A stretch of 20,002 nucleotides of DNA. Source: a virus. The position numbers and the translations under genes are program-made. Within the stretch, counting starts at the first letter, position 1. Every line of letters begins with the position of its first letter. The stretch is taken from positions 1-20,002 of IMG/VR virus record IMGVR_UViG_3300025896_001547; one strand, written 5' to 3'. The notes beneath the pieces are model-generated. The model saw nothing but the letters and a program-made list of their open reading frames with translations, was not told the DNA's origin and did not search any database. Shown here piece by piece: positions 3,526 through 20,002 of this stretch.

Positions 3526-3938
3526 AATACGATCTATCGAACGAAAACGAAGCCAGAGAAGCAAGTGAGTTCTTGGCCGGCTCAATCATGCGAGATAAAC
3601 TCGTAGAGATTAAAGTAGTCCGACCAACTCGCAGTCTTAAAGCCAACGCCTACTACCACCTACTACTACAGATATGTGGCTCAGAGTGGGGGTATTCTCT
3701 AGCCGAAATGAAGATAATGCACAAGCGAGATATATCGCCGAACATATTTATATACTTTAAAAACGATAAACCATTTACTAAAAGTTCAGCAGATTTAAAC
3801 AGTAAGGAGTTGAGCGAGGCAATCATCCAGTTGAAAAAGTATGCCTCTGAACAGTCACTCCAGTTGCCAGAGCCTGACGATGACACAGCATTAAATCACT
3901 GGCAGAGACAGATAGAAAGAGACAGTAAATACCTATGA
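3522..3938 (+). CDS. ninB: NinB-like recombination protein
   Basis: Product of 138 residues; its ATG lies inside the YqaJ stop (ATGA). The segment R-P-T-R-S-L-K-A-N-A-Y-Y-H at 34-46 is typical of NinB/Orf-type proteins, which help load recombinases on single strands in lambda. It is followed by a helical region and a W-G-Y-S-L-x-E-M-K stretch (56-64). Position as third gene after annealase and exonuclease supports the assignment. The stop is followed at once by the promoter and leader of an HNH gene, so the original downstream neighbour may have been displaced. Confidence 0.7.
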   Translation: MKYDLSNENEAREASEFLAGSIMRDKLVEIKVVRPTRSLKANAYYHLLLQICGSEWGYSLAEMKIMHKRDISPNIFIYFKNDKPFTKSSADLNSKELSEAIIQLKKYASEQSLQLPEPDDDTALNHWQRQIERDSKYL

Positions 3939-3942
3939 TTAG

Positions 3943-3951
3943 TGGTATAAT
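3943..3951 (+). promoter_or_regulatory. Extended -10 promoter of HNH gene
   Basis: TGGTATAAT, a perfect TGn-TATAAT element, starts five bases after the ninB stop. The start of transcription is expected near 3958, directly before the hairpin 3960-3980. The same nonamer is used at 5824-5832. Confidence 0.6.
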
Positions 3952-3959
3952 GATTACAA

Positions 3960-4009
3960 GAGATATAAAACAAATATCTCCCGTAGCGCTTAAACTAAAC
4001 AGGAGATAT
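3960..4009 (+). promoter_or_regulatory. Candidate RNA switch over the HNH ribosome site
   Basis: Three segments compete: GAGATAT (3960-3966), ATATCTCC (3974-3981) and GGAGATAT (4002-4009). The middle can pair with the first (7 bp, 7-base loop) or with the third (8 bp, 20-base loop). The third contains the Shine-Dalgarno site of the gene at 4013, so one fold exposes it and the other hides it. T4 homing endonucleases are known to be limited by hairpins over their ribosome sites; whether this switch responds to anything is not shown. Confidence 0.5.
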
Positions 4010-4012
4010 TCT

Positions 4013-4585
4013 ATGACTAATTGTAGCATCGAACTATGCGATAACCCACACCTAGCAAGAGGTGTTTGCAGAAAACACTATTCTAGGATAGTTAATAAAA
4101 ATGGTGGTCGCGTTAAAGATCCCATCATAAGGGTTGGCGAAAATCGGAAACAAAACTCTTTATACTCAACGTATAATGTTATGTTGCAGAGGTGTAACCC
4201 AAAGTTCGCCAACAAGTATCCTCGATACTCTGGTAGAGGGGTGAGAGTTTGTGACAGATGGCTAGGTATTGATGGCTTCAGTAACTTCTTAAATGATATG
4301 GGGGAGCGTCCTACAGGCTATACTCTAGACAGAGTTGATAACGATGGTGACTACTCCCCAGATAACTGTAGATGGGCAACCCCACTACAGCAGTCTCGTA
4401 ATAGAGGTGTCCTGCCTACTAGCGTATCTGGAGTATCTGGCGTTGTGTGGCTCAAAAGAGATAAGCGCTGGAGAGCTGAAATAGTAGACCGAGGAAAGCA
4501 CATATGTATTGGGTTCTTTACAGATATGGACGAGGCGATATTATCTAGGAAACAAGCAGAACTAAAGTATTGGGGTAAGCTATGA
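4013..4585 (+). CDS. HNH homing endonuclease with AP2-like domain
   Basis: Product of 190 residues, a paralogue of the protein at 1631. Order of parts: finger C4, C9, C19, H22; HNH-type core about 90-130 with D-R-V-D-N (106-110) and N118-C119; AP2-like domain about 139-187 (S-G-V, W146, G167-F168-F169). ATG at 4013 follows AGGAG (4001-4005) by seven bases and begins the conserved finger, so the in-frame ATG at 3935 overlapping ninB is rejected. It has its own promoter and a possible ribosome-site switch, and ends in an ATGA overlap with the next small gene, as if inserted neatly between neighbours. Confidence 0.88.
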   Translation: MTNCSIELCDNPHLARGVCRKHYSRIVNKNGGRVKDPIIRVGENRKQNSLYSTYNVMLQRCNPKFANKYPRYSGRGVRVCDRWLGIDGFSNFLNDMGERPTGYTLDRVDNDGDYSPDNCRWATPLQQSRNRGVLPTSVSGVSGVVWLKRDKRWRAEIVDRGKHICIGFFTDMDEAILSRKQAELKYWGKL

Positions 4586-5176: not shown

Positions 5177-5259
5177 TTGAGCGCATCTGTGATCTTTGTC
5201 ACAAACCAGTAAAGAACCTTAAACGCTTATCAAGAAAGGCTTGCAATTGCGACAAGTAG
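5173..5259 (+). CDS. Zinc-knuckle microprotein (28 aa)
   Basis: ATG at 5173 overlaps the previous stop; TAG at 5257-5259. The product carries C6-x2-C9 and C24-x-C26, enough to bind one zinc, with a basic middle (K-N-L-K-R-L-S-R-K). It overlaps the start of the following HNH gene by 13 bases. It could be a separate zinc peptide coupled in translation to the HNH gene; a broken N-terminal finger of that gene is less likely because the frames differ. Confidence 0.5.
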   Translation: MIERICDLCHKPVKNLKRLSRKACNCDK

Positions 5260-5492
5260 GTAAAAGAGGTAAGGAGTGGCCTAAAATTCGCAAGCAGTGG
5301 TTTAAGGACAATCCTAGAGATTGGTATGTTTGTTACCTCTGCAACCGTTCACTTATGCCGGAAGATACTACATTGGATCACGTTATACCTAAGTCTAATG
5401 CTCGCAACTTCGCACATAGGCACGACTCAGATAACTTGAAGCCTTGTTGCTGGACTTGTAACGGTAGCAAAGGATCAAAACACTTGACATAG
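5247..5492 (+). CDS. Small HNH endonuclease
   Basis: Product of about 81 residues, nearly all HNH domain: C-Y-L-C in the first zinc pair, D-H-V-I-P, N-L-K-P-C, then C-W-T-C-N-G-S-K-G at the end. This short form is typical of phage HNH nucleases, often next to packaging or replication genes. No ATG lies in frame near the start; TTG at 5247 is preferred over TTG at 5241 because it stands seven bases after AAAGG (5235-5239). The -35 of the next promoter lies across its last codons. May be a homing nuclease or a resolving nuclease. Confidence 0.8.
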   Translation: MRQVGKRGKEWPKIRKQWFKDNPRDWYVCYLCNRSLMPEDTTLDHVIPKSNARNFAHRHDSDNLKPCCWTCNGSKGSKHLT

Positions 5493-5899: not shown

Positions 5900-6349
5900 A
5901 TGAAGAACTTTATATTGAGCTTAACAGCCACAATAGTAGTAATGATAGTATCCCCACATCAACCTAAGATAATCGCAGACAGCCCCCACTTTATAAAAGA
6001 ATATAAGCCCCTAGCAAGCATAGAAGCCCCTGTATACGCAGAGAAACAATTAGCAGTAAAAGTACCAGTTGCGACCCCAAAGACCGCACCTGTGGCTTCT
6101 GGTGCAGTCAGTGGTAGCGAAGCAGAGGCTAAAGCATTTATATATGCTAAAGAGTCAGGCAATAACCCCGGAGCAATCAACAAGTCTAGCGGAGCATGTG
6201 GGCTAGGCCAGGCTCTCCCTTGTTCTAAGATGGGTTGTAGTCTCAGTGACTACGCTTGTCAAGATGCCTGGTTCACTAACTATATGCGATCAAGATATGG
6301 TACATGGGTCAAAGCTCAGGCATTCTGGCTATCTCATAAATGGTGGTAG
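5900..6349 (+). CDS. Secreted lytic-transglycosylase-like protein (SLT/Apf-type domain)
   Basis: Product of 149 residues. A signal peptide or anchor (residues 5-19) is followed by a Pro/Ala-rich linker to about 74 and a compact domain at 75-149. That domain has A-K-E85-S-G-N-N-P with the likely catalytic Glu, A-I-N-K-S-S-G-A-C-G-L-G-Q (92-104), N-Y-M-R-S-R-Y-G-T-W (127-136) and ends in W-W, as in short lysozyme-like Apf/Rpf relatives. Four cysteines (100, 108, 113, 120) could form disulfides outside the cell. It would cut peptidoglycan glycan strands, as endolysin or as entry enzyme. ATG 5900 has an in-frame TGA at 5885 and no Shine-Dalgarno site. Confidence 0.8.
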   Translation: MKNFILSLTATIVVMIVSPHQPKIIADSPHFIKEYKPLASIEAPVYAEKQLAVKVPVATPKTAPVASGAVSGSEAEAKAFIYAKESGNNPGAINKSSGACGLGQALPCSKMGCSLSDYACQDAWFTNYMRSRYGTWVKAQAFWLSHKWW

Positions 6350-7033: not shown

Positions 7034-7142
7034 CATAATAAACTACCTAATCTTCTCAGCCTTTATTATAGGACTCTGGGAGTTAGGCAAATGGGCTAGT
7101 AAAAAGATATGGAGATGGAATGAAGATACTGATAGCTTGTGA
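7023..7142 (+). CDS. Single-TM microprotein (39 aa)
   Basis: ATG at 7023 inside the end of the previous ORF; TGA at 7140-7142 within the start of the methyltransferase-like gene. One hydrophobic helix (about 5-19) is followed by a Trp- and Lys-rich stretch typical of the membrane interface (W-E-L-G-K-W-A-S-K-K). Third or fourth peptide of this kind in the window. Function unknown. Confidence 0.5.
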   Translation: MLNDIINYLIFSAFIIGLWELGKWASKKIWRWNEDTDSL

Positions 7143-7737
7143 ATGTTCTGGGCGTGTTAGGGAGTCTTTTAGAAAGCTAGGGCATGACGCCTGGAGTTGT
7201 GATGTTTTACCATCAAAAGATAACTCACCATATCACATACAAGATGATGTTCTAAAACACCTAGATGATGGTTGGGATATGATGATAGCTCACCCACCAT
7301 GTACTTACTTGAGTGTTGTTGCAGCAAAACATTTGTACAAAGGTGGCACTTTAAATCAAGAACGCTACCTAAAAGGTGTAGAAGCTGCAGATTTTTTTAC
7401 CAAACTGCTTAATGCCAACATACCAAAGATTTGCGTAGAAAATCCAGTGCAGTTTAAGGTGTTTGGTATACCAAAATACGACCAGATAATCCACCCTTAC
7501 TACTTTGGTGAGCCTGTTCAAAAGAGAACTTGTCTTTGGTTGAAGAACTTACCCCAACTTTCATGGGATAAAGACAATGCAAAAAAGCCAGAGCCACTTT
7601 ATTATCTAAAAACTAATGGTAAACCGATAAACTGGGTCGAAGGTCTAAAGGGCGGTAGCAGAGAGCGACAATCAGCCAGGAGCGTTACATTTCAGAGTAT
7701 TGCAGATGCTATGGCTTACCAGTGGGGTAAGCCATGA
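7120..7737 (+). CDS. C5-cytosine DNA methyltransferase-like protein
   Basis: Product of 205 residues of a family widespread in phages. SAM-binding motif I is at residues 4-12 (L-I-A-C-E-C-S-G-R), an acidic D28 ends the second strand, and motif IV is H-P-P-C (58-61) with the catalytic Cys position of C5 methyltransferases. V-E-N-P near 106-109 corresponds to motif VI. A target-recognition domain is not evident and the protein is shorter than usual (over 300 residues), so specificity, or activity at all, is uncertain. A role in protecting phage DNA from restriction is plausible. ATG 7120 overlaps the preceding microprotein by 23 bases. Confidence 0.75.
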   Translation: MKILIACECSGRVRESFRKLGHDAWSCDVLPSKDNSPYHIQDDVLKHLDDGWDMMIAHPPCTYLSVVAAKHLYKGGTLNQERYLKGVEAADFFTKLLNANIPKICVENPVQFKVFGIPKYDQIIHPYYFGEPVQKRTCLWLKNLPQLSWDKDNAKKPEPLYYLKTNGKPINWVEGLKGGSRERQSARSVTFQSIADAMAYQWGKP

Positions 7738-9486: not shown

Positions 9487-9582
9487 ATGACAACTGCTCG
9501 GAACTCAAATATAACAAGCCCTGCATTACCGAGCAGTTTTGCAGGGCTTTTTGCATTGGAGGTTTTATGTCAAAGTCAGTAG
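9487..9582 (+). CDS. Possible leaderless 31-aa leader peptide
   Basis: ATG at 9487 stands exactly six bases after TATAAT, like the starts at 1631 and 16231, so an mRNA from this promoter would begin at or next to the codon. The frame passes through all arms of the attenuator and stops at 9580-9582, inside the next gene. Ser/Ala/Leu content is unremarkable and no run of a regulatory amino acid is seen. If translated, ribosomes would disturb the first stem. Confidence 0.25.
   Translation: MTTARNSNITSPALPSSFAGLFALEVLCQSQ
9492..9552 (+). terminator. Attenuator: antiterminator and terminator stems that exclude each other
   Basis: Arm a AACTGCTCGG (9492-9501) pairs perfectly with a' CCGAGCAGTT (9529-9538). 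Arm b AAGCCCTGCA (9516-9525) pairs perfectly with b' TGCAGGGCTT (9540-9549), which runs into TTTTT (9548-9552). The order a, b, a', b' means both full stems cannot form together (only one base separates a' from b'). b:b' is an intrinsic terminator; a:a' would prevent it. Lying between the promoter and the first gene, it should control everything downstream. Confidence 0.75.
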
Positions 9583-10373
9583 CAATAGTTGGGTATGGTG
9601 TTGTCGGTAAAGCGTATCATAAGGTCTTTGACGATGCTTTAATATACGATCCTTACCAGCCAGAGGGAAAGGATACTACAAAAGAACAGGTGAACGCTTG
9701 TGATGTAGCTGTAGTAGCTGTATTTACCCCACATAAAGAGGATGGCTCACTGGATGTTTCTATAGTAGAAGAAGTAATTGATTGGATTGAATGTCCACTT
9801 ATTATCATCAAAAGTGCATTACACCCTGGTACAGTGGACAAACTTGTAGAGAGAACAGGCAAACGCATTGCTGTATCTGTAGAATATATAGGAGAGGGCA
9901 ATTACCCAGTACACTTTTGGAAGTACCCTCACCAAGAAGACCCTAGAATGCACCAGATGTTAGTTGTAGGTGGTGAAAGCGATGTTGCCGAGGAGGCCGC
10001 ACAGTTCTTATGGAGAAAGCTATCACCGGATATTAAGATACACAAGGTTACAGCTAAAGAAGCTGAAATCGTTAAATTGGTAGAGAATAGCTACCCTGCC
10101 ATGAAAGTCACATTCATGAATGCTCTTCTAAGCGTTGCAGAGAAGTCAGACTCAAGTTTCATAAGAATACACCAAGCATGGAATAGTGACCCTAGAACCG
10201 ACTCTATGCACGTCAGGGCGGTATCTTTTGAGAGAGGTTGGAAGTCCAAGTGTTGGGATAAAGATGTGCCGGCTCTTGCCAAGTACGCATCTTCAATCGG
10301 AGCTGATGATATGGCTAAACTTTTAAATACAGTTGTTGAGATTAACGAGGAGCATATAAAAGAAAATGGCTAA
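9567..10373 (+). CDS. UDP-glucose/GDP-mannose dehydrogenase-like protein, C-terminal domain missing
   Basis: Product of 268 residues; family members are usually about 400-450. The Rossmann motif G-Y-G-V-V-G (9-14) and the substrate-loop F-T-P-H-K-E-D-G-S-L-D (53-63) are clear. By eye, catalytic residues of the family are kept: E106 and E110 (Y-I-G-E), K170 and N174 (K-L-V-E-N), C229 with K232-D233 (C-W-D-K-D). The Thr of the K-S-T motif is Ala84. The C-terminal sugar-nucleotide domain is absent. It may oxidise a nucleotide sugar to the uronic acid, or act as a simpler dehydrogenase. GGAGG at 9558-9562 sets the start. First gene after the attenuator. Confidence 0.8.
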   Translation: MSKSVAIVGYGVVGKAYHKVFDDALIYDPYQPEGKDTTKEQVNACDVAVVAVFTPHKEDGSLDVSIVEEVIDWIECPLIIIKSALHPGTVDKLVERTGKRIAVSVEYIGEGNYPVHFWKYPHQEDPRMHQMLVVGGESDVAEEAAQFLWRKLSPDIKIHKVTAKEAEIVKLVENSYPAMKVTFMNALLSVAEKSDSSFIRIHQAWNSDPRTDSMHVRAVSFERGWKSKCWDKDVPALAKYASSIGADDMAKLLNTVVEINEEHIKENG

Positions 10374-10935
10374 GTTTGTAATGTCAGTAGATGATGGCTG
10401 CCGGCACGATATAAGGATTGCTCAACTTGCAAAGAAATACGCCATTGATTGTACATTTTACTGGCCGGTCAACTGGACACATCACGCTTTAGCGCATGGG
10501 TATGAGCCGTTGTCTTACAGAGAAGCTTTAGAGATAGCTGAGAAGCATGAAATAGGTTCACACACCATCACCCACAGACACCTTACAAAGCTTGATTTAG
10601 AAGATGCAGTAAGCGAAGTGGTAGAGTCTAAGCTAATGCTTACAAGATTATTCCCTAATAACGTAATAAATAAATTCTGTCCACCTAGAGGATATACAAA
10701 CGAGATTTTAACCGAAGCTACATTAGGGGTATACGACTCACAACGTCTTACCAAAGGCGAGGGGTTAGTACACATCCATCCTAATAGCGGAGCCAACAAT
10801 AATATAGACTGGCGAGAATACGCTAAGACCGTAGATGTAAAAGAAATTTGGGGACATTCCTGGGAGATTGAGAAATATAATTTATGGCAACAGCTAGAGG
10901 ACTTTTTGTATGAAAATACACATTCTGAACTATGA
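10366..10935 (+). CDS. NodB-type polysaccharide deacetylase (CE4)
   Basis: Product of 189 residues, one NodB domain without signal peptide, so it acts in the cytoplasm. Metal motif residues are present: S-V-D9-D10-G, then S-H66-T-I-T-H70 (the H-x3-H pair), P-P-R-G-Y (106-110) and H164 near the end (G-H-S-W). These give the Asp-His-His zinc site and catalytic base of carbohydrate esterase family 4, which removes N-acetyl groups from amino sugars. It overlaps the previous gene by 8 bases and the next by 26. Presumably it edits a sugar intermediate made by the neighbours. Confidence 0.85.
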   Translation: MAKFVMSVDDGCRHDIRIAQLAKKYAIDCTFYWPVNWTHHALAHGYEPLSYREALEIAEKHEIGSHTITHRHLTKLDLEDAVSEVVESKLMLTRLFPNNVINKFCPPRGYTNEILTEATLGVYDSQRLTKGEGLVHIHPNSGANNNIDWREYAKTVDVKEIWGHSWEIEKYNLWQQLEDFLYENTHSEL

Positions 10936-11707
10936 GCCTGAACGAATGGGCGGTGGATGGACTGCCTCAAGGTATCTTTACAATGGTTTGGAGTGCGTAC
11001 CCTACAGCGAAGCCGACACAGTTTTAATCACAAGCCCCACAATGGTATCTCACGATCAGGTAGAGCAAGCTAAAAACGATGGCAAGAAGATTGTACTTAG
11101 AATAGACAACGCAGTACGCAACTCTCGTAACAGAGGTACTGGCATGACTAGAATGAAAGCTTTTTGTGAAAAAGCTGATTTAGTTATTTATCAGTCAGAA
11201 TGGGCTAAGAAGTTTCTAATGCCTTACACAAAGACAGACGGAGAAGTAATCTTAAACGGTGTAGATACTAAACGATTCACAAAGCATGAAACATCTGTTC
11301 CGGCAGAGGGGACTTATCTATACGTCAGAAGCTCAAGAGACGAAGGTAAGCAGTGGATAATGGCGTGGTACTGGTTTGTTAATAACCCAGGTTTCTTAGA
11401 GATAGTCGGTAAGTTCTCAAGCGAGAATATGGATTATGGATTTGACTTTTACAATGACGAACGATTTAGATTCATGGGTGAGCAGATGGACATGTCACCT
11501 ATTTATAAACGCAATAAGTATTTTTTGTATACATACCTTAATGATGCGTGTAGTAATACGTTATTAGAAGCTAGAGCAAGCGGTTGTGAGATAGTCGATG
11601 TATACGGTATGTTACAGACTGGCGGAGCGCCTGAAATTATGGCATGCGAGGATATATCTGTAGAGCGAATGATAAGAGAATATAAAGAAGTGATGGGTAG
11701 ATTATGA
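10910..11707 (+). CDS. GT-B glycosyltransferase (GT4-like)
   Basis: Product of 265 residues, short for the family (350-400). An N-terminal half with I-V-L-R-I-D-N (61-67) and I-L-N-G-V-D-T-K-R-F (114-123) leads to a C-terminal part with N-D-A-C-S-N-T-L-L-E-A-R-A-S-G (211-225), the usual nucleotide-sugar-binding stretch of GT4-type enzymes. Its acceptor and donor cannot be read from the sequence. The start overlaps the deacetylase by 26 bases. Confidence 0.75.
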   Translation: MKIHILNYEPERMGGGWTASRYLYNGLECVPYSEADTVLITSPTMVSHDQVEQAKNDGKKIVLRIDNAVRNSRNRGTGMTRMKAFCEKADLVIYQSEWAKKFLMPYTKTDGEVILNGVDTKRFTKHETSVPAEGTYLYVRSSRDEGKQWIMAWYWFVNNPGFLEIVGKFSSENMDYGFDFYNDERFRFMGEQMDMSPIYKRNKYFLYTYLNDACSNTLLEARASGCEIVDVYGMLQTGGAPEIMACEDISVERMIREYKEVMGRL

Positions 11708-12279
11708 GTAGTAGTTACCGGCTAGAATTAAACAAGTGGCTATCTCAGTTAGAGGTTAAAGCCGATAGGGTATTGGACATAGGTGGTTCACAAGAACAGA
11801 TGCCACCTAGAGTTAAGAGTTGGGATGTTAAAGAGTATATTATTGCTGATCTACCCAACCCTCACAAGGACAGCTCGAAGCCCGATATAGAGCTAGATTT
11901 AAACTTTGATGAATATGACGAGCTTATTAGTCACGTTGGTAAGTATGATTTAGTGTTTTGTCTAGAGGTGTTTGATTATGTTTACGATCCTATGGTGGCT
12001 TTCAAAACTATCCAAACCTTGTTAAAGCAAGGTTGTACAGCTTGGGTGACATTCCCATCAATATACCCCCTCCATCAACCAGTAGAAGATGATGCACTAC
12101 GTTATATGCCTGGGGGTATAAGAAAACTAGCCGAGGCTGTTGGTCTTACTGTAGTTCAGATGATACCTCGTAGATTTGAATCAAGCGGTTGGGACAATAC
12201 AATACGAGCTGAAAGAATGAGAGCTGCTAAACATGAAGACCATAACTTTAGTGGCTGGATAGTGGAGTTTAGAAAATGA
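11704..12279 (+). CDS. Class I SAM-dependent methyltransferase
   Basis: Product of 191 residues. Motif I V-L-D-I-G-G-S (23-29), acidic residue of motif II at D49, and Y-D-L-V-F-C-L-E-V-F-D (81-91) as the post-motif strand that shapes the active site, as in Methyltransf_11/23 enzymes acting on small molecules or sugars. F-P-S-I-Y-P-L-H follows. The ATG overlaps the previous stop. Within a glycan cluster an O- or N-methylation of a sugar is likely; the target is not known. Confidence 0.82.
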   Translation: MSSSYRLELNKWLSQLEVKADRVLDIGGSQEQMPPRVKSWDVKEYIIADLPNPHKDSSKPDIELDLNFDEYDELISHVGKYDLVFCLEVFDYVYDPMVAFKTIQTLLKQGCTAWVTFPSIYPLHQPVEDDALRYMPGGIRKLAEAVGLTVVQMIPRRFESSGWDNTIRAERMRAAKHEDHNFSGWIVEFRK

Positions 12280-12806
12280 GGCACATATTTATAGATGCTG
12301 GTTGCCATGATGGAGATACGGTTAGGGAATTCCACGACTGGAAGCTTTTAGCATACCCTCAAGATATACGATGGGAAGTATTTGCCTTTGATGCATCGCC
12401 ACAGTTTAAAGAGGCCTGGAAGCGAGACAACTCAGGAGCTAACTTTATTCAGAAGGCAGTATGGACTGAGGATGGGGAGATTACTTTTGCTAACTGTACA
12501 GATAAACATAATTTAGGCTCGACTTTAATAATCGGTAAAGATCACTGGGACATAGGAGATAAGATAACCGTTGAGTGCTTTGACTTTTCTAACTGGTTAA
12601 GACAGTTTAACGAGTGCCATGTTATTGTAAAAATGGATATAGAGGGTGCTGAGATGCCAGTCATATCAAAGATGATTGAGGATGGAACAGATACTATACC
12701 CCACAAAATGTTTGTTGAGTGGCACGATCACAAGATCAACGGTAATACTTACGATACAAACCAAATTATTAAGCAGTATAGAGGAGAATTATTGTCATGG
12801 CGGTAG
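12276..12806 (+). CDS. FkbM-family methyltransferase
   Basis: Product of 176 residues. Shows the FkbM pattern: F-I-D-A-G-C-H-D-G-D-T-V (5-16), F-A-F-D-A-S-P (36-42), F-D-F-S-N-W (102-107) and V-I-V-K-M-D-I-E-G-A-E (116-126). FkbM enzymes methylate hydroxyl groups, often on sugars of glycans or antibiotics, using SAM. It is shorter than many (200-280). Starts in an ATGA overlap and shares 10 bases with the next gene. Confidence 0.88.
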   Translation: MRHIFIDAGCHDGDTVREFHDWKLLAYPQDIRWEVFAFDASPQFKEAWKRDNSGANFIQKAVWTEDGEITFANCTDKHNLGSTLIIGKDHWDIGDKITVECFDFSNWLRQFNECHVIVKMDIEGAEMPVISKMIEDGTDTIPHKMFVEWHDHKINGNTYDTNQIIKQYRGELLSWR

Positions 12807-13360
12807 AATGGTCAATACCAATAAAAACAGACTGGATGAAAGAGCAGTCTAGCCATGAGCCATCAATGGAGTATGCCAAAGATATACACAGGGTAGCTTC
12901 GACTTTAAAAAACTTTACAGCTCTTGAAATAGGCATGGCTTGGGGGTTTTCAACATTAGCTTTACTTGAGGCCGGTGCAAAGAATTTATTATCGGTAGAC
13001 CCTAATGCTTTAGCTAGGGGTAAAGAAGAGTCAGAGGCTAATGGTTATACAAACCATGTATGGACTTGTTGTAAATCATCACAATATTGGGCTGAGAATG
13101 ATAGCAAGTTTGATTTAATTTATGTAGATGGTTCTCACCTGTACGTCAATGTAGTCGAAGATTTATATGAGGCTTGGGCTAGATTGAACCCCGGCGGTCT
13201 TTTAATGATTGACGATTGGGAGCATAAAAAGAACATTAAAGCCGAGAATGATACATCAGAGTACGGTGTATCTATTGCCTGTTGGGAATTTTGGAAAGAT
13301 AAAGTCAGTGAAGTTAATTCTGTTGGTATAGACGGAAGAGTATTGTGGTTTAAAAAATGA
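12797..13360 (+). CDS. Class I methyltransferase (Methyltransf_24-like)
   Basis: Product of 187 residues. A-L-E-I-G-M-A-W-G-F-S-T (42-53) is motif I, S-V-D-P (66-69) holds the acidic residue for the ribose of SAM, and D-L-I-Y-V-D-G-S-H-L-Y (106-116) followed by L-N-P-G-G-L-L-M-I-D-D-W (130-141) is the signature of CmcI/Methyltransf_24 types, often metal-dependent sugar O-methyltransferases. GAGGAG at 12781 sets the start. The third methyltransferase in a row, unlike its two neighbours in sequence. Confidence 0.85.
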   Translation: MAVEWSIPIKTDWMKEQSSHEPSMEYAKDIHRVASTLKNFTALEIGMAWGFSTLALLEAGAKNLLSVDPNALARGKEESEANGYTNHVWTCCKSSQYWAENDSKFDLIYVDGSHLYVNVVEDLYEAWARLNPGGLLMIDDWEHKKNIKAENDTSEYGVSIACWEFWKDKVSEVNSVGIDGRVLWFKK

Positions 13361-13890
13361 TTGCTTATGTCACTAGTATTAACGAGCCAACCACTGAAAT
13401 ATGCAGGTGGGCTTTAGATAGGCTAGGGTTTACTACAGTTCTGTACATAGACCAAACTTCGCTATGGAATAAGCTAGAGGGTATATTTGAAGAAGCTACA
13501 GATGACTTTCTAAGAGTAGACGCTGATGTAATCGTAAACAAAAACGTGTTGGATTTAGTAGCTATGGATAAACTTTGGTGGTATCAGTGTATGACCTTTG
13601 ACTGGCATAAACAAGATGTGACACATGGCGGAGTTCAATTTATTCGGAAACAGTGTATAAAACCAGTATTAAAACATATCAGAGAAGCCGAGCATGAAGA
13701 TAGACCCGAATCATATCTTTATAGATTAAAAGAATTTCACAATCCTAGAGTATGTGGGACATTTGATAAAGTCTGCGGGCTTAATGGGTATATGCAAAAC
13801 GACATACAAAGAGTCAAAGAAACAAAACTAAGGCGAGGTCAGTATCACAATTACGATTGGGAGTTGTCAGAAAGGATATCAGCACTATGA
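13357..13890 (+). CDS. GT-A-like glycosyltransferase candidate
   Basis: Product of 177 residues. It begins with a strand (A-Y-V-T-S-I-N) and reaches F-L-R-V-D-A-D-V-I-V (51-60), whose D-A-D serves as the DxD metal motif of GT-A enzymes. W-W-Y-Q-C-M-T-F-D-W and G-G-V-Q-F-I follow in positions where such enzymes bind the acceptor. No precise family named. Starts in ATGA overlap without a strong ribosome site, so it depends on coupling. Confidence 0.65.
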   Translation: MIAYVTSINEPTTEICRWALDRLGFTTVLYIDQTSLWNKLEGIFEEATDDFLRVDADVIVNKNVLDLVAMDKLWWYQCMTFDWHKQDVTHGGVQFIRKQCIKPVLKHIREAEHEDRPESYLYRLKEFHNPRVCGTFDKVCGLNGYMQNDIQRVKETKLRRGQYHNYDWELSERISAL

Positions 13891-14663
13891 AGCTAGGCAT
13901 TTTTACTACTACATCATTCCCTGAACGCAGAGGTGAGCATTACCAAGAGTCTTTAGAATGCTATATGGATTTAGCTGATGAGGTAGTTACTATGCGAGGC
14001 GAGGAGACTTGGCCTAAAGAGTTTAACTGGCCACTCATCGGGCAGCATTTCCAAAAGGGCTATGAACAGTTAAACACTGATTGGGTGATACACGCTGATC
14101 TTGATTTCATATTCCACGAGGATGACTTTAGGGCTATAAGAGAAGCTTGCGAACGCAATAACGATGCACCAGCCATGTCATTTTATAAGCATCAGTTTAT
14201 CTTACCAGATAGATATAATCTTAAATCTAGGCTTGTAATAGCTGTGAATAAGGGTAAGTTTGGTGATAGGATAAAGTTTAACTCAGGTGGCGATTTATGT
14301 CAGCCATCACTTGACGGAGTAGAGATTAAACCCGACAGTGTTCCTGAAGCCGGTATACCGTTTTATAACTACGAGAAGCTAATTAAGAACCCCAATCAAG
14401 TAATGGACGATGTAGGCAGGATGGATAGAGCTTACAAACGACACTTTGGTAAGTTTCTATACTCAGATGATGGTACAGATGAACACGCCTTTGATGGTTG
14501 GATGAGAATGGTTACTGGTAGGTTTAACAAACCCCAGAGGCACATTGGTATAGAAGACCACCCAATATATATTCAAGGAGTATTAGCAACATTAAGAAAA
14601 CATCACTTTGGCTATTCAGGCTTCGGTGCATTAGAGGAGAACGATTATGTTAAAAGTAGTTAG
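13887..14663 (+). CDS. GT-A-like glycosyltransferase candidate
   Basis: Product of 258 residues from ATG 13887, which follows AAAGGA (13871-13876) and overlaps the previous stop; the in-frame TTG at 13857 is rejected. Strand L-G-I-F-T-T-T-S at the start, then I-H-A-D-L-D-F-I-F (68-76) with D-L-D as DxD motif and further on D-G-T-D-E-H and G-W-M-R-M in the probable acceptor region. Similar in plan to the neighbour at 13357, so perhaps the two act in sequence. Overlaps the next gene by 17 bases. Confidence 0.7.
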   Translation: MKLGIFTTTSFPERRGEHYQESLECYMDLADEVVTMRGEETWPKEFNWPLIGQHFQKGYEQLNTDWVIHADLDFIFHEDDFRAIREACERNNDAPAMSFYKHQFILPDRYNLKSRLVIAVNKGKFGDRIKFNSGGDLCQPSLDGVEIKPDSVPEAGIPFYNYEKLIKNPNQVMDDVGRMDRAYKRHFGKFLYSDDGTDEHAFDGWMRMVTGRFNKPQRHIGIEDHPIYIQGVLATLRKHHFGYSGFGALEENDYVKSS

Positions 14664-16215
14664 TGTAGTAGATAAAGTAGGCACAGCCCTCGACAGGTTA
14701 GCTAAAGGCGTGGCACCGTATCACGATAACCTAAATTATATCGTATGTGACGTTCATCCAAAGCGACCGGACCCTGAACAGTTGGCTAGGTTTGAAGTGG
14801 AAGCAATGGATGCCGACATTATCGACTGGCAATACTTTAGGACAGCTGAGCTTCTAAGAAGTAAGTACGATTGGCTAAAAGATAAGAAGCACATCTTAAC
14901 CCACAACAACCCCTACTCAATAACAGAGTCAGACTGGAACACTTACGATATAAACGTAGGTAATAATCAGGAGATAAGCGACAACCTCAAGAAGATAACT
15001 AACACGCAGGTCGAATACATCCCAATCACTGTAGACTCAGACTTTTGGGAGTACAACCAAGAATGGGAGCCTAACAACTCTGTAATTATGGTGGCTAATC
15101 GTATTGAGAGTAAAAAGGGGATCTTGCCCGTTGCTATCGCTGCTTCAGATTTGGGTATGAAGTTTATTTTAGTAGGGGCGGTATCAGATAGAAACTACAT
15201 GTTTGACATTATGCAAACTGGCAACAATATAGAGTTTCACGAACAAGTATCGGATGAAGAACTTAGGCAACTCTACTACAGATCAACTATTCATGTCTGT
15301 AATTCAGTAGATAACTTTGAGTCAGGTACTATGCCAATACTAGAGTCAATGTTTTGCGGTGTGCCGGTGCTTACTCGTAAGGTTGGTCATGTGCCAGATA
15401 TTTATAATGGTGAGAACATGATGCTTCAAGAGGGAAGCTCTGAAGATGTAGTAGGTATAACCGAGAAACTTAAAGAGATGTTGTTTGATAAGAAACTACT
15501 ATCTGAAATGCGAGACAAAGCTTGGAACTCAGTTAAGAGTAGAAACTTTGAACGTAGAGCTTATGAATACCAGAAACTTTATAGACAAGTAATGTATCCC
15601 GACCAAGCCCCTGTATCTGTAGTTGTTCCGATATATGATAGACCTGAGATTATCTCGAAATGCCTTAGTGCTATCGCTAATCAAACTTATAAGAACATTG
15701 AAATTGTAGTGGTAGACGATAATCAAGAATCTAACAAGCCTCTAGTTGATGAGTTCGCTAGATATGTCAATGTACCTGTTCGGTATTTAAACACCGCAGA
15801 TGGGACGTATGGCCTTGCTAGGGCTAGAAACGAGGGTACTATTCAGGCTACAGGCGAGATAATAGTTTACTGCGATCAACGCATGGTAATGCACGAAAAC
15901 GCAGTAGAAGAGTTTGTTAAGAACATCAAACCTAAGACCTGGATGTACGGTAAAAAACTTACCAAGAAAGAGTTTGTTGAAAACTTTAGTTGTGTATATC
16001 GTAAAGAGGTAATCGAAGCTGGTTTGTTTAATGAGAGAATAAATCTATATGGTGGTCAATCTCAAGAGGTCAGAAGTAGAATAAGAAGACAAGGATTCCA
16101 AATAGAATACGTTGAGGGAGCCGAGTGTACCCCTACAGGCAAATCATCTAATAGGAATCGTAAGCGAAACGAGATTATCAAAATGAAGAATAAATTATGG
16201 AAGTGCGGTCTTTAG
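14647..16215 (+). CDS. Two-domain glycosyltransferase: GT-B (GT4) plus GT-A (GT2)
   Basis: Product of 522 residues. Residues 1-315 form a GT-B enzyme: V-A-N-R-I-E-S-K-K-G (149-158) and the E-x7-E pair E225/E233 in F-E-S-G-T-M-P-I-L-E. Residues 321-520 form a GT2 domain: V-S-V-V-V-P-I-Y-D-R-P (323-333), V-V-D-D-N (356-359 region), A-R-A-R-N-E-G (391-397) and Y-C-D-Q-R (408-412), where a DxD would be expected. Such fusions add two sugars or two linkages in turn. GAGGAG at 14635 sets the start. The TAG stop is directly followed by the HNH gene. Confidence 0.88.
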   Translation: MLKVVSVVDKVGTALDRLAKGVAPYHDNLNYIVCDVHPKRPDPEQLARFEVEAMDADIIDWQYFRTAELLRSKYDWLKDKKHILTHNNPYSITESDWNTYDINVGNNQEISDNLKKITNTQVEYIPITVDSDFWEYNQEWEPNNSVIMVANRIESKKGILPVAIAASDLGMKFILVGAVSDRNYMFDIMQTGNNIEFHEQVSDEELRQLYYRSTIHVCNSVDNFESGTMPILESMFCGVPVLTRKVGHVPDIYNGENMMLQEGSSEDVVGITEKLKEMLFDKKLLSEMRDKAWNSVKSRNFERRAYEYQKLYRQVMYPDQAPVSVVVPIYDRPEIISKCLSAIANQTYKNIEIVVVDDNQESNKPLVDEFARYVNVPVRYLNTADGTYGLARARNEGTIQATGEIIVYCDQRMVMHENAVEEFVKNIKPKTWMYGKKLTKKEFVENFSCVYRKEVIEAGLFNERINLYGGQSQEVRSRIRRQGFQIEYVEGAECTPTGKSSNRNRKRNEIIKMKNKLWKCGL

Positions 16216-16216
16216 A

Positions 16217-16224
16217 TGTATAAT
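16217..16224 (+). promoter_or_regulatory. Promoter for leaderless HNH gene in the glycan operon
   Basis: TGTATAAT identical to 1617-1624, starting two bases after the upstream stop, with ATG 16231 exactly six bases behind the hexamer. No clear -35. Confidence 0.5.
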
Positions 16225-16230
16225 ATGGTT

Positions 16231-16713
16231 ATGGCTAATAAAAAAAATAGGCAGTGTCTTGGCTGCCAGAGACTAATATGGGACACCCCTATTAGAACGA
16301 GTACCGGCCTATGCAAAAAATGCTGGAGCTTTACAAGGAAACATTCGCCAGAAACTATTGAGCGTATAAAAAACTCTGCTAAGTTGCGCTGGAGTAAACT
16401 ATCAGAAAAAGAAAAGCAAAGTAAGATTCAAAGAGATAGATTTGCTGACCCGAAGAACCACCCCAACTGGAAAGGTGGCATCACACCTTTGTCAAAAGTA
16501 GAAAGAAGTAAGGCTGTACATCGTAAGTTTAGAATGCAGATACTAGAGAGAGATAAGTGTTGCGTGTTTTGTGGCTCTTTAAAAAGGTTAGAAGTAGATC
16601 ATATAAAACCATTTGCGTTTTACCCAGAGCTACGATTAGACCCAAGTAACGCAAGAACTTTATGCCACGACTGTCACAAGAAGACACCTACATATGCAAG
16701 GCAAACATTATGA
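16231..16713 (+). CDS. HNH endonuclease inserted in the glycan cluster
   Basis: Product of 160 residues. N-terminal zinc ribbon (C9, C12, C28, C31), a basic helical linker with R-W-S-K-L-S-E-K-E-K (52-61) and H-P-N-W-K-G-G (75-81) as in NUMOD3-type DNA-binding elements, then HNH: C-C-V-F-C-G, E-V-D-H-I-K-P-F, L-D-P-S-N-A-R-T-L-C-H-D-C-H. ATG 16231 is preferred over 16216 and 16225, which overlap the promoter. It is not related in layout to the AP2-type genes at 1631 and 4013. Its stop overlaps the next glycosyltransferase start, so the operon stays translatable. Confidence 0.85.
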   Translation: MANKKNRQCLGCQRLIWDTPIRTSTGLCKKCWSFTRKHSPETIERIKNSAKLRWSKLSEKEKQSKIQRDRFADPKNHPNWKGGITPLSKVERSKAVHRKFRMQILERDKCCVFCGSLKRLEVDHIKPFAFYPELRLDPSNARTLCHDCHKKTPTYARQTL

Positions 16714-17753
16714 TTAAAGTATTTGGGGTATTGAACCACATTGGCAACCAATACGAGATGCTGAAGTTGATGGATAACTACGATGTAGAGTTTACTTACC
16801 TAGAAAACAACGTAAGGCGATGGTCTGATGCATCATCTAGACCTATGCACCCTAAACTTAAATGGGCTACTCACTACGAGCCAGGTAAGTACGATGTGGC
16901 TATCTTACACGTTGACCAACAGCACACTGACCCGAACATTGGTAAGGGTTGGTTGTACACCGACCTGAACGACATCATTCAAGATATCCCTAAGATTGTA
17001 ATCAATCATGGTACGCCTATGTGGGATGAGTTTTATACTGAAGACATGGTTATTAACGGAGGTGAGATTCAAACCGAGCGTGGCCCTAAGAAACTTATAG
17101 GCATGAAAGAAAAGATTGGCGATAACTTTATGGTCGTAAACTCATACGAGTCAGTCGATAGGTGGGGCTGGGGTTATCCGCTTATTCATGGGTTAGACCC
17201 TGATGAGTGGTGGGATATGCCAAAAGAACCTAGAGTATCTGTGTTAGTAAGCCCCGGTGGATTGTCAAAGTACTATAACCGACCTCTTATATCTGCTATT
17301 AAAGCTGCGGTATACGAGAAAAGCGGTATTGAAATACTACATCCTAACGTGAATGTAGACTTGTCTGGTGATAACTGGACAGAGTACCGACAGTTAATCG
17401 GTACATCTTTAATATCAATCTTCCCATTCCTAGACTCCCCTATGCCACGCAGCAGAACCGAAGCCATGCTATCTGGCTCTTGTGTTCTAACGTCTCGTCA
17501 TCATGGCGGTGATGGCTTTATAGAAAATGGTGTTAATGGGCTTATACTGCCAGATAACCCGGACTCTTACGCTCATGCTATCCACACACTCATAAATGAT
17601 TGTTACAAAGATGCAATCGAGATGGGCCAAAGAGGGAAAGAAACAGCTAAGAAGATATTTAGCCCCGAAGTTTACCAAAAAGACCTATATCACATTATTA
17701 AGGAAGTATCAGAGGGTCGTAAGCCTATATGGAACGGAGAAAAACGATGGTAA
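16710..17753 (+). CDS. GT-B glycosyltransferase
   Basis: Product of 347 residues starting at ATG 16710 in an ATGA overlap with the HNH gene; an in-frame TTG at 16662 is rejected. N-terminal domain with I-V-I-N-H-G-T-P (near 95-102), then C-terminal domain with S-R-T-E-A-M-L-S-G-S-C-V-L (252-264) and F-I-E-N-G-V-N-G-L (274-282), the usual GT4 donor site. The AAGG ribosome site at 16698-16701 lies within the HNH gene, so the insertion supplies it. Donor and acceptor unknown. Confidence 0.8.
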   Translation: MIKVFGVLNHIGNQYEMLKLMDNYDVEFTYLENNVRRWSDASSRPMHPKLKWATHYEPGKYDVAILHVDQQHTDPNIGKGWLYTDLNDIIQDIPKIVINHGTPMWDEFYTEDMVINGGEIQTERGPKKLIGMKEKIGDNFMVVNSYESVDRWGWGYPLIHGLDPDEWWDMPKEPRVSVLVSPGGLSKYYNRPLISAIKAAVYEKSGIEILHPNVNVDLSGDNWTEYRQLIGTSLISIFPFLDSPMPRSRTEAMLSGSCVLTSRHHGGDGFIENGVNGLILPDNPDSYAHAIHTLINDCYKDAIEMGQRGKETAKKIFSPEVYQKDLYHIIKEVSEGRKPIWNGEKRW

Positions 17754-18586
17754 AATTCTTAACATTTGAGCAATTCCACAACAAAAAAGGCATAGGCTCG
17801 ACTAATATACGCGTACATCAGCTATTAAAGTATTGGCCCGAAGCTTCTATTTATCGCTATGGAGAGAATGCTGATTGTATGATATTCCAAAAGGTTTATT
17901 GTGGGTTAGATTATAAGTTCCCTGCACACTTTGAGGGTAAAAAGATACTTGATATATGCGATCCTGACTGGATGCAAGGTAGAGTATTTGTGAAAGAAAC
18001 TGTTGATGCCGTCGATGCCGTTACTTGTCCAACAGAAGTGATGCAAAGATTCATACAACAGATGACCAATAAACCGGTAGTTGTTATAAAAGATAGGTTT
18101 GATATTGAGCTAGTGCCGGAGCCAAAGCCGCACGATAAGGAGGCCAAGACAGTTGTATGGTTTGGTTATAGACATAACGCTGAATTATTAAAGCCGGCGA
18201 TGCACGTTATTGATGAGCTTGGATTGAATCTAATCATAATAGCTGATGATGACCCTATACTCTACCAATACAGCACAAGAGACAGACACGACTTCTATGA
18301 GTTTGTTAAGTATAACGAAGATACTTTTTATGAGAATATGCAAAAAGCAGACTACGCATTACTACCACAAGGCTTCAGACCACAAGATGTATTTAAGAGT
18401 GAAAACAAGACTATAAAAGCTAAACTTGCAGGGTTACCAGTAGCTCGCACAGCAGATGATATGAGGAAGTTTGCAGACCCTAAAGAACGACAGTTGGCTA
18501 TTGATACCGATTATGCTAATATAAAACAAGAATACGATGTTCGCAAGTCTGTAAAAGAGATGAAAGAATTGATCGCAAGCTTATGA
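17747..18586 (+). CDS. Glycosyltransferase-like protein
   Basis: Product of 279 residues. ATG 17747 is served by GGAG nine bases upstream and overlaps the previous stop; the in-frame ATG at 17729 is less likely. Segments G-S-T-N-I-R-V-H-Q-L (near 17-26), D-I-C-D-P-D-W (near 70-76), T-V-V-W-F-G-Y (about 135-141) and Y-A-L-L-P-Q-G, then N-K-T-I-K-A-K-L-A-G-L-P-V (about 224-236) follow the plan of GT-B enzymes; the last one binds the donor. Last gene of the glycan array; the next two genes lead into packaging. Confidence 0.7.
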   Translation: MVKFLTFEQFHNKKGIGSTNIRVHQLLKYWPEASIYRYGENADCMIFQKVYCGLDYKFPAHFEGKKILDICDPDWMQGRVFVKETVDAVDAVTCPTEVMQRFIQQMTNKPVVVIKDRFDIELVPEPKPHDKEAKTVVWFGYRHNAELLKPAMHVIDELGLNLIIIADDDPILYQYSTRDRHDFYEFVKYNEDTFYENMQKADYALLPQGFRPQDVFKSENKTIKAKLAGLPVARTADDMRKFADPKERQLAIDTDYANIKQEYDVRKSVKEMKELIASL

Positions 18587-18729
18587 CAAAACGAAAGAAA
18601 CAGCTAAAACAAGTAAACAAATCTGTAATGAAACAGATGCTTAACTTCAATGTACCTGAAATGCTACCAAATTACAGAGAAACTCGTAAGGAGAAAAGAC
18701 TTAGAATGAGAAAGATGGGGTTAATATAA
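18583..18729 (+). CDS. Basic hypothetical protein (48 aa)
   Basis: ATG overlaps the previous stop (ATGA) and TAA overlaps the next start (TAATG). Strongly basic throughout (K-R-K-K at 3-6, R-K-E-K-R-L-R-M-R-K at 35-44), so nucleic-acid binding is plausible. It links the glycan array to the small terminase in one translation chain. No family recognised. Confidence 0.55.
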   Translation: MTKRKKQLKQVNKSVMKQMLNFNVPEMLPNYRETRKEKRLRMRKMGLI

Positions 18730-19130
18730 TGGGTAAGACTGGCATAGGGGTAAACGGTAATCTTATACCTGTAAAACCTGGAGAAGTACGCAATCCTAAA
18801 GGTAAACCAAAGGGTACAGTCCACTTATCGACTCATATACAAAATATTCTTAACGATGAAGAATTTACTGCCGAGATGATAGATGCTCAAGGTAATAAGT
18901 TACATTTCAAGGGTCATCCAGTTAAAGCAATCATTCAAACTGCGATCATTAAAGCCACACAAGGCGATAAACATTGGGCGGATTGGTTAGCCCAGAATGG
19001 CTATGGTTCTAAGCTAGTCTTATCACCCGAAGACCCTGTTGGTGCAATATTAAATAAGATGGGATTGGGAGAGAGCGATGCTGGACAAGCTGAAGATACT
19101 TCGGAAGCAACATCTGAAGACGTTTCATAA
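18729..19130 (+). CDS. terS: Small terminase subunit candidate (DUF5681-like)
   Basis: Product of 133 residues. P-G-E-V-R-N-P-K-G-K-P-K-G-T (17-30) is the hallmark of DUF5681, a domain found directly before large terminases in many phages. A helical middle (L-S-T-H-I-Q-N-I-L, A-I-I-Q-T-A-I-I-K-A) and an acidic Ser/Glu tail follow. In the terminase complex the small subunit would bind the packaging site on phage DNA. The role is drawn from position and motif, not proven. Confidence 0.72.
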   Translation: MGKTGIGVNGNLIPVKPGEVRNPKGKPKGTVHLSTHIQNILNDEEFTAEMIDAQGNKLHFKGHPVKAIIQTAIIKATQGDKHWADWLAQNGYGSKLVLSPEDPVGAILNKMGLGESDAGQAEDTSEATSEDVS

Positions 19131-20002
19131 CGTAACTTTCTATCCTTATCAGGAGAAAATATCTGATGCTATACTTGAAGCCCTCATCCAAAACCTAAGA
19201 CTGACTGCTAGTGCCACTGAACAAGACATTAAAAAGCTAAAGTTAGTCGAACAACCAGTAGAAATCTCTCGTCAGGCCGGTAAGACTACCGATGTTGTAT
19301 TAACGGTAGAGTTTATAATGATTTACTTCACTAAGGTGTTTAACAAGCGTATAAACATCGGTATATTCGCACCACAGCATGAACAGGCTAAAACAGACTT
19401 TGATAGGCTCAAAGAGGCTCTAAATAGGTCTAGGGAGCTTGTTATTGTGCAAAGTGATGAAGAGAAAGAATATCAAGAGCAATCTAACTCCAAGACCCTT
19501 GTGCTACCCAACGGTTCGTCATGTTATATATTCCCTGTAACTAAAACATCTAAGCCGGAATCTAAAACCCTTGATTTAATCATTTTTGAGGAGTCGCAAG
19601 ACCTTGAAGATAGGATTATTAAAGAGCAGATATGGCCAATGGGTGCATCAACTAACGCTCCCAGAATATATATCGGTACAGCCGGTACTAGAATTTGTTA
19701 CTTCAGAAAGATAGGTAACAGCGAGAAAGCCATCAAGCTCTACTTCGAGGAGATAGTAGCACAGCGTAGACAGGTATTTGAGCAGACAGGCGATGCCAAG
19801 CATTTGATCTACGAGCAATCTATTAGACAGGAGATAGAGAAGCATGGGCTTGAAGCTGATGAGATACAGCGACCTTACTTTGGTAAATGGTTAATTGGCA
19901 CAGGCCAGTTTGTTACAGCCGAGGAGCTAGAAGCTATTGAAACTGATAGAGGTATTACACGCCACTATAAAGATGGTGATTGTTATGTTGGTATTGATAC
20001 AG
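19078..20002 (+). CDS. terL: Terminase large subunit, 3' end outside window (partial)
   Basis: 308 residues are visible. The ATPase has a Walker A-like R-Q-A-G-K-T (65-70), and Walker B with acidic pair is L-D-L-I-I-F-E-E-S-Q (165-174). G-T-A-G-T-R follows as coupling motif III. The nuclease domain begins at the end of the window with Y-V-G-I-D, whose Asp is the first metal ligand. The enzyme cuts concatemers and pumps DNA into the prohead. It starts at ATG 19078 after GGGAGAG and overlaps the small subunit gene by 53 bases in another frame. Confidence 0.9.
   Translation, partial: MLDKLKILRKQHLKTFHNVTFYPYQEKISDAILEALIQNLRLTASATEQDIKKLKLVEQPVEISRQAGKTTDVVLTVEFIMIYFTKVFNKRINIGIFAPQHEQAKTDFDRLKEALNRSRELVIVQSDEEKEYQEQSNSKTLVLPNGSSCYIFPVTKTSKPESKTLDLIIFEESQDLEDRIIKEQIWPMGASTNAPRIYIGTAGTRICYFRKIGNSEKAIKLYFEEIVAQRRQVFEQTGDAKHLIYEQSIRQEIEKHGLEADEIQRPYFGKWLIGTGQFVTAEELEAIETDRGITRHYKDGDCYVGIDT

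Follow-up and report, generated by a model that had tools for sequence, protein, structure and literature searches.

A conserved multi-gene sugar operon adjoining the packaging genes in a tailed-phage clade with Saccharibacteria as probable hosts

Here, we describe an operon of sugar-related genes in IMG/VR virus record IMGVR_UViG_3300025896_001547, an uncultured tailed phage whose entire 20,002-base record is the window analyzed. The operon (9567-18586) lies on a single strand directly before the terminase genes and comprises twelve genes, of which eleven are sugar-related (encoding a UGD-like dehydrogenase, a NodB deacetylase, six glycosyltransferase-like proteins, and three methyltransferases) and one encodes an HNH endonuclease. 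Judging from strong protein homology and a gene order kept in tens of contigs, it is well above chance, and it characterizes a whole phage clade instead of being the cargo of one phage. Because the close relatives all keep the operon core, the phages of this clade very likely produce a sugar coat of their own. The operon would be a late glycosylation module, and we lean towards the view, reached by elimination and from genomic position, that, as the late genes are expressed, a modified glycan is synthesized in the cytosol and joined to a protein of the virion.

Results

Operon layout

Neighboring genes of the operon overlap by 4-26 bp, with two exceptions, namely, the HNH gene (gap of 0 ahead of it) and terS, which follows the last glycosyltransferase (GT) gene after 142 bp (Table 1). 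No terminator-like site was found in that gap (18586-18729), and promoter-like sites in the operon region did not rise above shuffled sequences. An earlier annotation of this stretch (the original prediction) had placed an overlapping sugar operon at the same coordinates, without a terminator before terS and terL, and was correct on each of these points. Its count of ten genes was wrong (its own list sums to eleven), and it overlooked a twelfth open reading frame (ORF), that of the HNH endonuclease; homologues also move the start of the GT gene after this ORF from 16662 to 16710. The families it named (Ugd-like, NodB, three methyltransferases, and most of the GTs) were borne out by family searches.

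Table 1. Features of the window
Feature	Coordinates	Strand	Evidence and remarks
Lysozyme-like protein	5900..6349	+	Saccharibacteria RpfB-type C-terminus; outside operon
UGD-like nucleotide-sugar dehydrogenase	9567..10373	+	268 aa; Pfam PF03721/PF00984; N-terminal and central domains only
NodB/CE4 polysaccharide deacetylase	10366..10935	+	Pfam 2e-9; PDB deacetylases match
GT4-type GT (GT4a)	10910..11707	+	Weak Pfam 4e-4; conserved in 21 loci searched
S-adenosylmethionine (SAM) methyltransferase (MTa), Methyltransf_23-like, core	11704..12279	+	Pfam 5e-6, just below cut-off
FkbM-family methyltransferase, accessory	12276..12806	+	Pfam 3e-8; NCBIfam TIGR01444 above cut-off
Methyltransf_24 methyltransferase, accessory	12797..13360	+	Pfam 5e-15
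Putative small GT-A-like protein	13357..13890	+	RxDADxIV (DxD-like) motif; no family match
GT-A-fold GT	13887..14663	+	ATG at 13887, ATGA overlap; invariant DxD (IHxDxDFIFHE); no Pfam match
GT4+GT2 fusion GT, core	14647..16215	+	Pfam GT4 8e-13, GT2 2e-19
HNH endonuclease, probable mobile insertion	16216..16713	+	Pfam/PHROG
GT4 GT (GT4b), core	16710..17753	+	Pfam 1e-8; start from homologues
GT-B (GT4-like) GT (last GT), core and clade marker	17729..18586	+	Fold; no Pfam match
Putative terminase small subunit (terS), DUF5681	18729..19130	+	Pfam 2e-4, below cut-off; adjoins terL
Terminase large subunit (terL), truncated by window end	19078..20002	+	PHROG 6e-10; 61% to sisters

Conservation of the operon with the terminase

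Single-sequence scans of viral sequences with TerL and NodB yielded no relatives, and alignment queries were needed; the UGD-like protein retrieved three close viral contigs, and an alignment of the last GT retrieved 28 loci. The syntenic core consists of NodB, GT4a, a methyltransferase, the GT4+GT2 fusion, GT4b, and the last GT, followed by the terminase and portal genes. Among 16 dereplicated contigs with at least 8 kb before the last GT, the GT fusion, GT4b, and the last GT are present in all, MTa in 15, GT4a in 14, NodB in 13, and UGD in 10. The middle of the operon is variable, with extra methyltransferases, GDP-mannose dehydratase and epimerase, radical SAM, cytidylyltransferase, and GT2 genes in other members.

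Because this set had been chosen by an operon gene, an independent set of loci was selected by TerL similarity alone (at least 2.5 kb upstream, n = 24). In 20 of these loci, the same strand carries both GT4b and the last GT upstream of terL, and the remaining four are those with the most distant TerLs (32-38% identical). A set chosen by the portal was mixed, the closer portals being accompanied by the operon and many of those at ~30% lacking it. Taken together, the TerL and portal sets indicate that the operon marks a clade and is not shared by every phage that has this portal. Pairwise identities of the core GTs track those of TerL (r = 0.89 for the GT fusion, 0.84 for GT4b, and 0.87 for the last GT, over 55 pairs that are not independent of one another), and mean identities are similar (0.50, 0.58, and 0.47, respectively, versus 0.55 for TerL), so that these three GTs are about as conserved as TerL.

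The UGD-like protein alone is not a usable clade marker, given that most of its relatives at ~30% identity in other viral contigs are not accompanied by the remaining operon genes. A host chromosomal origin, which the original prediction had named as a finding that would speak against it, was rejected because homologues of the last GT in three partly overlapping Patescibacteria genome sets (380, 393, and 393 genomes) were limited to one phage contig; these sets yielded no chromosomal cluster corresponding to the operon.

Linkage to packaging and head genes

The predicted coupling of a phage glycan operon to packaging genes holds in the window, a virus contig, and the contigs of relatives add portal, protease, capsid, tape measure, and endolysin genes. 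The 41.8-kb contig G007, which is probably circular and complete at ~41.7 kb as judged from a 138-bp overlap of its ends with a single mismatch, has the stop codon of the last GT overlapping the start of terS as TAATG. Portal, protease, and capsid genes directly follow the operon in distant members of the clade, on the same strand in G010, G014, G015, and G011, and in the five larger contigs mapped, the operon is located ahead of either the terminase or the portal-protease-major capsid protein block. Late expression, another element of the original prediction, is supported to the extent that synteny bears on it. The portal ORFs of G003, G010, and G015 are 756-782 aa long, which, together with matches to a MuF-like family in the same set, suggests a portal-MuF fusion in the clade.

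Sugar-nucleotide and modifying enzymes

The UGD-like protein matches the NAD-binding (E = 8e-8) and central (E = 2e-14) Pfam domains and UGDs in the PDB (E down to 2e-12). Its KSxxxPGT, ExxK...N, and CxxKD regions align with UGD active-site segments, with KSA in place of KST. The catalytic Cys-Lys-Asp region is present along with both domains. The C-terminal UDP-binding domain was not detected by Pfam, the sister proteins are of similar size (268-276 aa), and the protein falls below all NCBIfam cut-offs, including the full-length equivalog score. The NodB protein retains the DDG, H-x3-H, and PRGY motifs across the clade and has no signal peptide by hydropathy. NCBIfam matches to NodB, NodS, and NodC are far below the cut-offs, and no Nod-factor-like pathway is claimed. 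A defense role of the Methyltransf_24 protein was likewise dismissed, the PADLOC mad2 match spanning only a methyltransferase domain.

Glycosyltransferases

Searches of PDB sequences with the last GT, the GT-A-fold GT, and the small GT-A-like protein gave nothing useful. The AlphaFold model of the last GT, built from a clade alignment, is predicted to adopt a GT-B fold (predicted local distance difference test, pLDDT, 92.8), with PimA as the nearest Foldseek match (E = 7e-10). The corresponding model of the GT-A-fold GT is GT-A-like (pLDDT 92.8), nearest to the S-glycosyltransferase SunS (E = 1e-7), ThuS, and WrtF. Query-normalized TM-scores are ~0.5-0.7 for the former and 0.35-0.53 for the latter; accordingly graded, the modeled fold class is supported for the last GT and less firmly for the GT-A-fold GT, and fold does not fix the substrate. 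The top structural neighbors of both include protein- or peptide-modifying enzymes (SdgB, GtfC, and SunS between them), which is suggestive only. In the small GT-A-like protein, the RxDADxIV motif is invariant in an alignment of seven phages, and profile comparison with GT-A families was unconvincing (probability 13%).

The GT2 domain of the fusion shows weak similarity to the GtrB PHROG. A Gtr-type membrane set for serotype conversion (GtrA/GtrB/Gtr, which use a lipid carrier) was not found, in that no GtrA-like gene was seen and the fusion has no transmembrane segment outside the GT4 fold, within which its hydrophobic stretch falls. By hydropathy, convincing transmembrane helices and signal peptides are lacking in all operon proteins of the window; a distant methyltransferase member stands out as an exception. 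Families of the flippase or polymerase type were absent from the scans of G001, G003, and G007 and from the listed accessory families.

Probable mobile elements

The operon HNH gene is missing at the same place in the sister phages G001 and G002, and related HNH genes occupy other operon junctions in loci L055 and L056; the operon therefore appears to be a repeated landing site. Within 20 kb, the window contains four HNH endonuclease genes (1616-2233, 3935-4585, 5241-5492, and 16216-16713). The UGD-like protein is 85% identical to that of G001, versus 59% for TerL, and its gene is placed elsewhere in other members, so that it probably moves on its own.

In locus L079 (7673-9604), and also in L080, the last GT gene forms a single frame of 643 aa, into which ~350 aa are inserted in frame after about residue 71; the insertion may be an intein within a glycosyltransferase. 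The TerL of G001 (L047, 15330-17591) is 753 aa long, versus ~513 aa in its sisters, and a Hint domain matches in the G001/G003 protein set, suggesting that this TerL carries an intein. A gene for a D12-class adenine DNA methyltransferase (L047, 14087-15010) is located between the last GT gene and terS in G001.

Host

The host is probably a member of Saccharibacteria, given that the C-terminus of the lysozyme-like protein is shared with these bacteria and that a contig of the clade was found in a Saccharimonadia-class genome. This C-terminus is up to 65% identical to a chromosomal RpfB-like protein encoded beside NUDIX, ksgA, and metG in a Patescibacteria genome. The domain was detected in 72 of 147 Saccharimonadia-class genomes and, at E 1e-15, in none of 150 Actinomycetota genomes, a set without a positive control at that threshold. 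The clade contig (7.6 kb) lies inside one Saccharimonadia-class genome and may be co-binned. The lysozyme-like homologues of G003 and G007 are encoded on the strand opposite to the operon.

Discussion

We propose that cytosolic GTs (GT4, GT-A, the GT4+GT2 fusion, GT4, and GT-B) assemble a short sugar chain on one of the structural proteins of the phage while heads or tails are being produced. In a presumed order of steps, the UGD-like enzyme would oxidize a sugar nucleotide, the NodB protein would deacetylate an N-acetyl sugar to a free amine, and hydroxyls or amines would be capped by as many as three methyltransferases, the sugars themselves being conjectural; expression alongside terS, terL, portal, and capsid genes would time glycosylation to assembly. 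The original prediction had left the target as virion, DNA, or host surface, and the evidence now favors the virion, with no membrane or lipid-carrier enzymes in the operon and no thymidylate synthase/hydroxymethylase homologue in 11 related contigs. Several points weigh against such a pathway. Many phage glycosyltransferases act on DNA or on the host surface, and structural neighbors leave the GT substrate unfixed; transmembrane segments were called by hydropathy only, and the host could provide carrier or flippase steps. Activity of the UGD-like protein is uncertain because of the absent C-terminal domain and the KSA variant, and the small GT-A-like protein is a putative GT identified from its motif.

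One rival reading, in which the operon remodels the host surface (cell-wall glycan, pili, or capsule) to exclude superinfection or to change attachment, strikes us as unlikely. Superinfection-exclusion genes are usually early or lysogenic, and the operon sits in the packaging/head block. It also lacks a membrane GT, flippase, and polymerase, its deacetylase has no signal peptide, and the absence of convincing transmembrane segments argues against assembly of a lipid-linked surface glycan by the phage alone. Nevertheless, CE4 deacetylases often work on cell-wall glycans; many sub-cutoff NCBIfam matches are to exopolysaccharide, teichuronic acid, or lipid-linked glycan enzymes; and O-antigen nucleotide-sugar genes are reported from phages of Patescibacteria (PMC12911398).

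Hypermodification of phage DNA with a sugar chain that evades host nucleases has a precedent in virus GTs that decorate DNA with diverse glycans (Pyle 2024, as cited in PMC12619734), which likewise build glycans, and the window contains a DNA methyltransferase-like gene of phrog_757 (7120-7737). We nonetheless consider it improbable. That chemistry requires hydroxylated bases, and, in line with the original prediction, homologues of thymidylate synthase/hydroxymethylase were found in none of 11 related contigs, most of them fragments, when the control search rang in 9 genomes; TET/JBP dioxygenases also had no match in these contigs, in a search where no control genome rang. Pfam scans of G007 and the near-complete G001 and G003 list neither family, and the phrog_757 gene has no tblastn match in G001-G003. 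Still more improbable is a small soluble glycoside or glycolipid acting inside the infected cell, in metabolism or signaling, instead of a coat. The GT-B structural neighbors do include the small-molecule GTs PimA, SenB, and BshA, but a chain of several sugars is the likelier product of five or six GTs, one of them a fusion, and conservation alongside head genes would be left unexplained.

Attachment to the virion, the reading we prefer, has parallels in known systems. Mycobacteriophages Che8, Rita, and their relatives are tailed phages with GT genes of their own and glycans covalently bound to capsid or tail proteins (Freeman 2023, as cited in PMC11256854 and PMC12619734). Maravista, a relative, has a few putative GTs near the genome end (PMC11256854), in contrast to the eleven genes, including a dehydrogenase, a deacetylase, and methyltransferases, that lie directly before the terminase here. 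No homology to mycobacteriophage virion GTs was found: the marker GTs match no phage record, and the matches of the GT fusion include no mycobacteriophage. Methylated sugars occur in a chlorovirus capsid glycan. Large DNA viruses such as chloroviruses glycosylate autonomously and likewise encode multi-gene glycan synthesis (as described in PMC4691112 and PMC7019647) but infect eukaryotes and have much larger genomes. Microbacterium phages (Quhwahvirus) encode a short UGD-like protein (783-bp gene) adjoining a GT gene; they differ in having few sugar genes, near the genome end, at ~29% identity, and no deacetylase or terminase linkage appears in the stretch read.

A tblastn search of 50,697 phage records returned no match to either marker GT (GT4b or the last GT), and TerL matched there only at ~28%. 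No report of the operon was found in the literature searched, which covered few subscription papers, and the reported work on Saccharibacteria phages (PMC10746230) makes no mention of glycosyl genes. Phage-encoded glycosylation is known; its conserved multi-gene form, tied to the packaging genes in a clade, appears to be new within the literature searched. A wider proposal, plausible although somewhat less likely than not, is that these phages form an undescribed, roughly family-level clade infecting Candidate Phyla Radiation (CPR) bacteria (Saccharibacteria), in which the multi-enzyme glycosylation operon is a hallmark structural module, conserved like the terminase and co-expressed with the packaging genes, and every member glycosylates its virions, the sugars and methyl caps differing between lineages.

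Glycosyltransferases of phages are commonly regarded as dispensable extras. The inheritance of three of them together with the terminase throughout a clade instead suggests that they matter for the function of the particle. The operon is, in addition, a small glycan pathway free of membrane proteins, in which methylation and nucleotide-sugar genes vary. Should the particles prove to be glycosylated, a phage lineage would be defined by autonomous glycosylation of its virions, and this trait could help to explain how phages reach Saccharibacteria, which are ultra-small, parasitic epibionts of other bacteria and have reduced biosynthesis.

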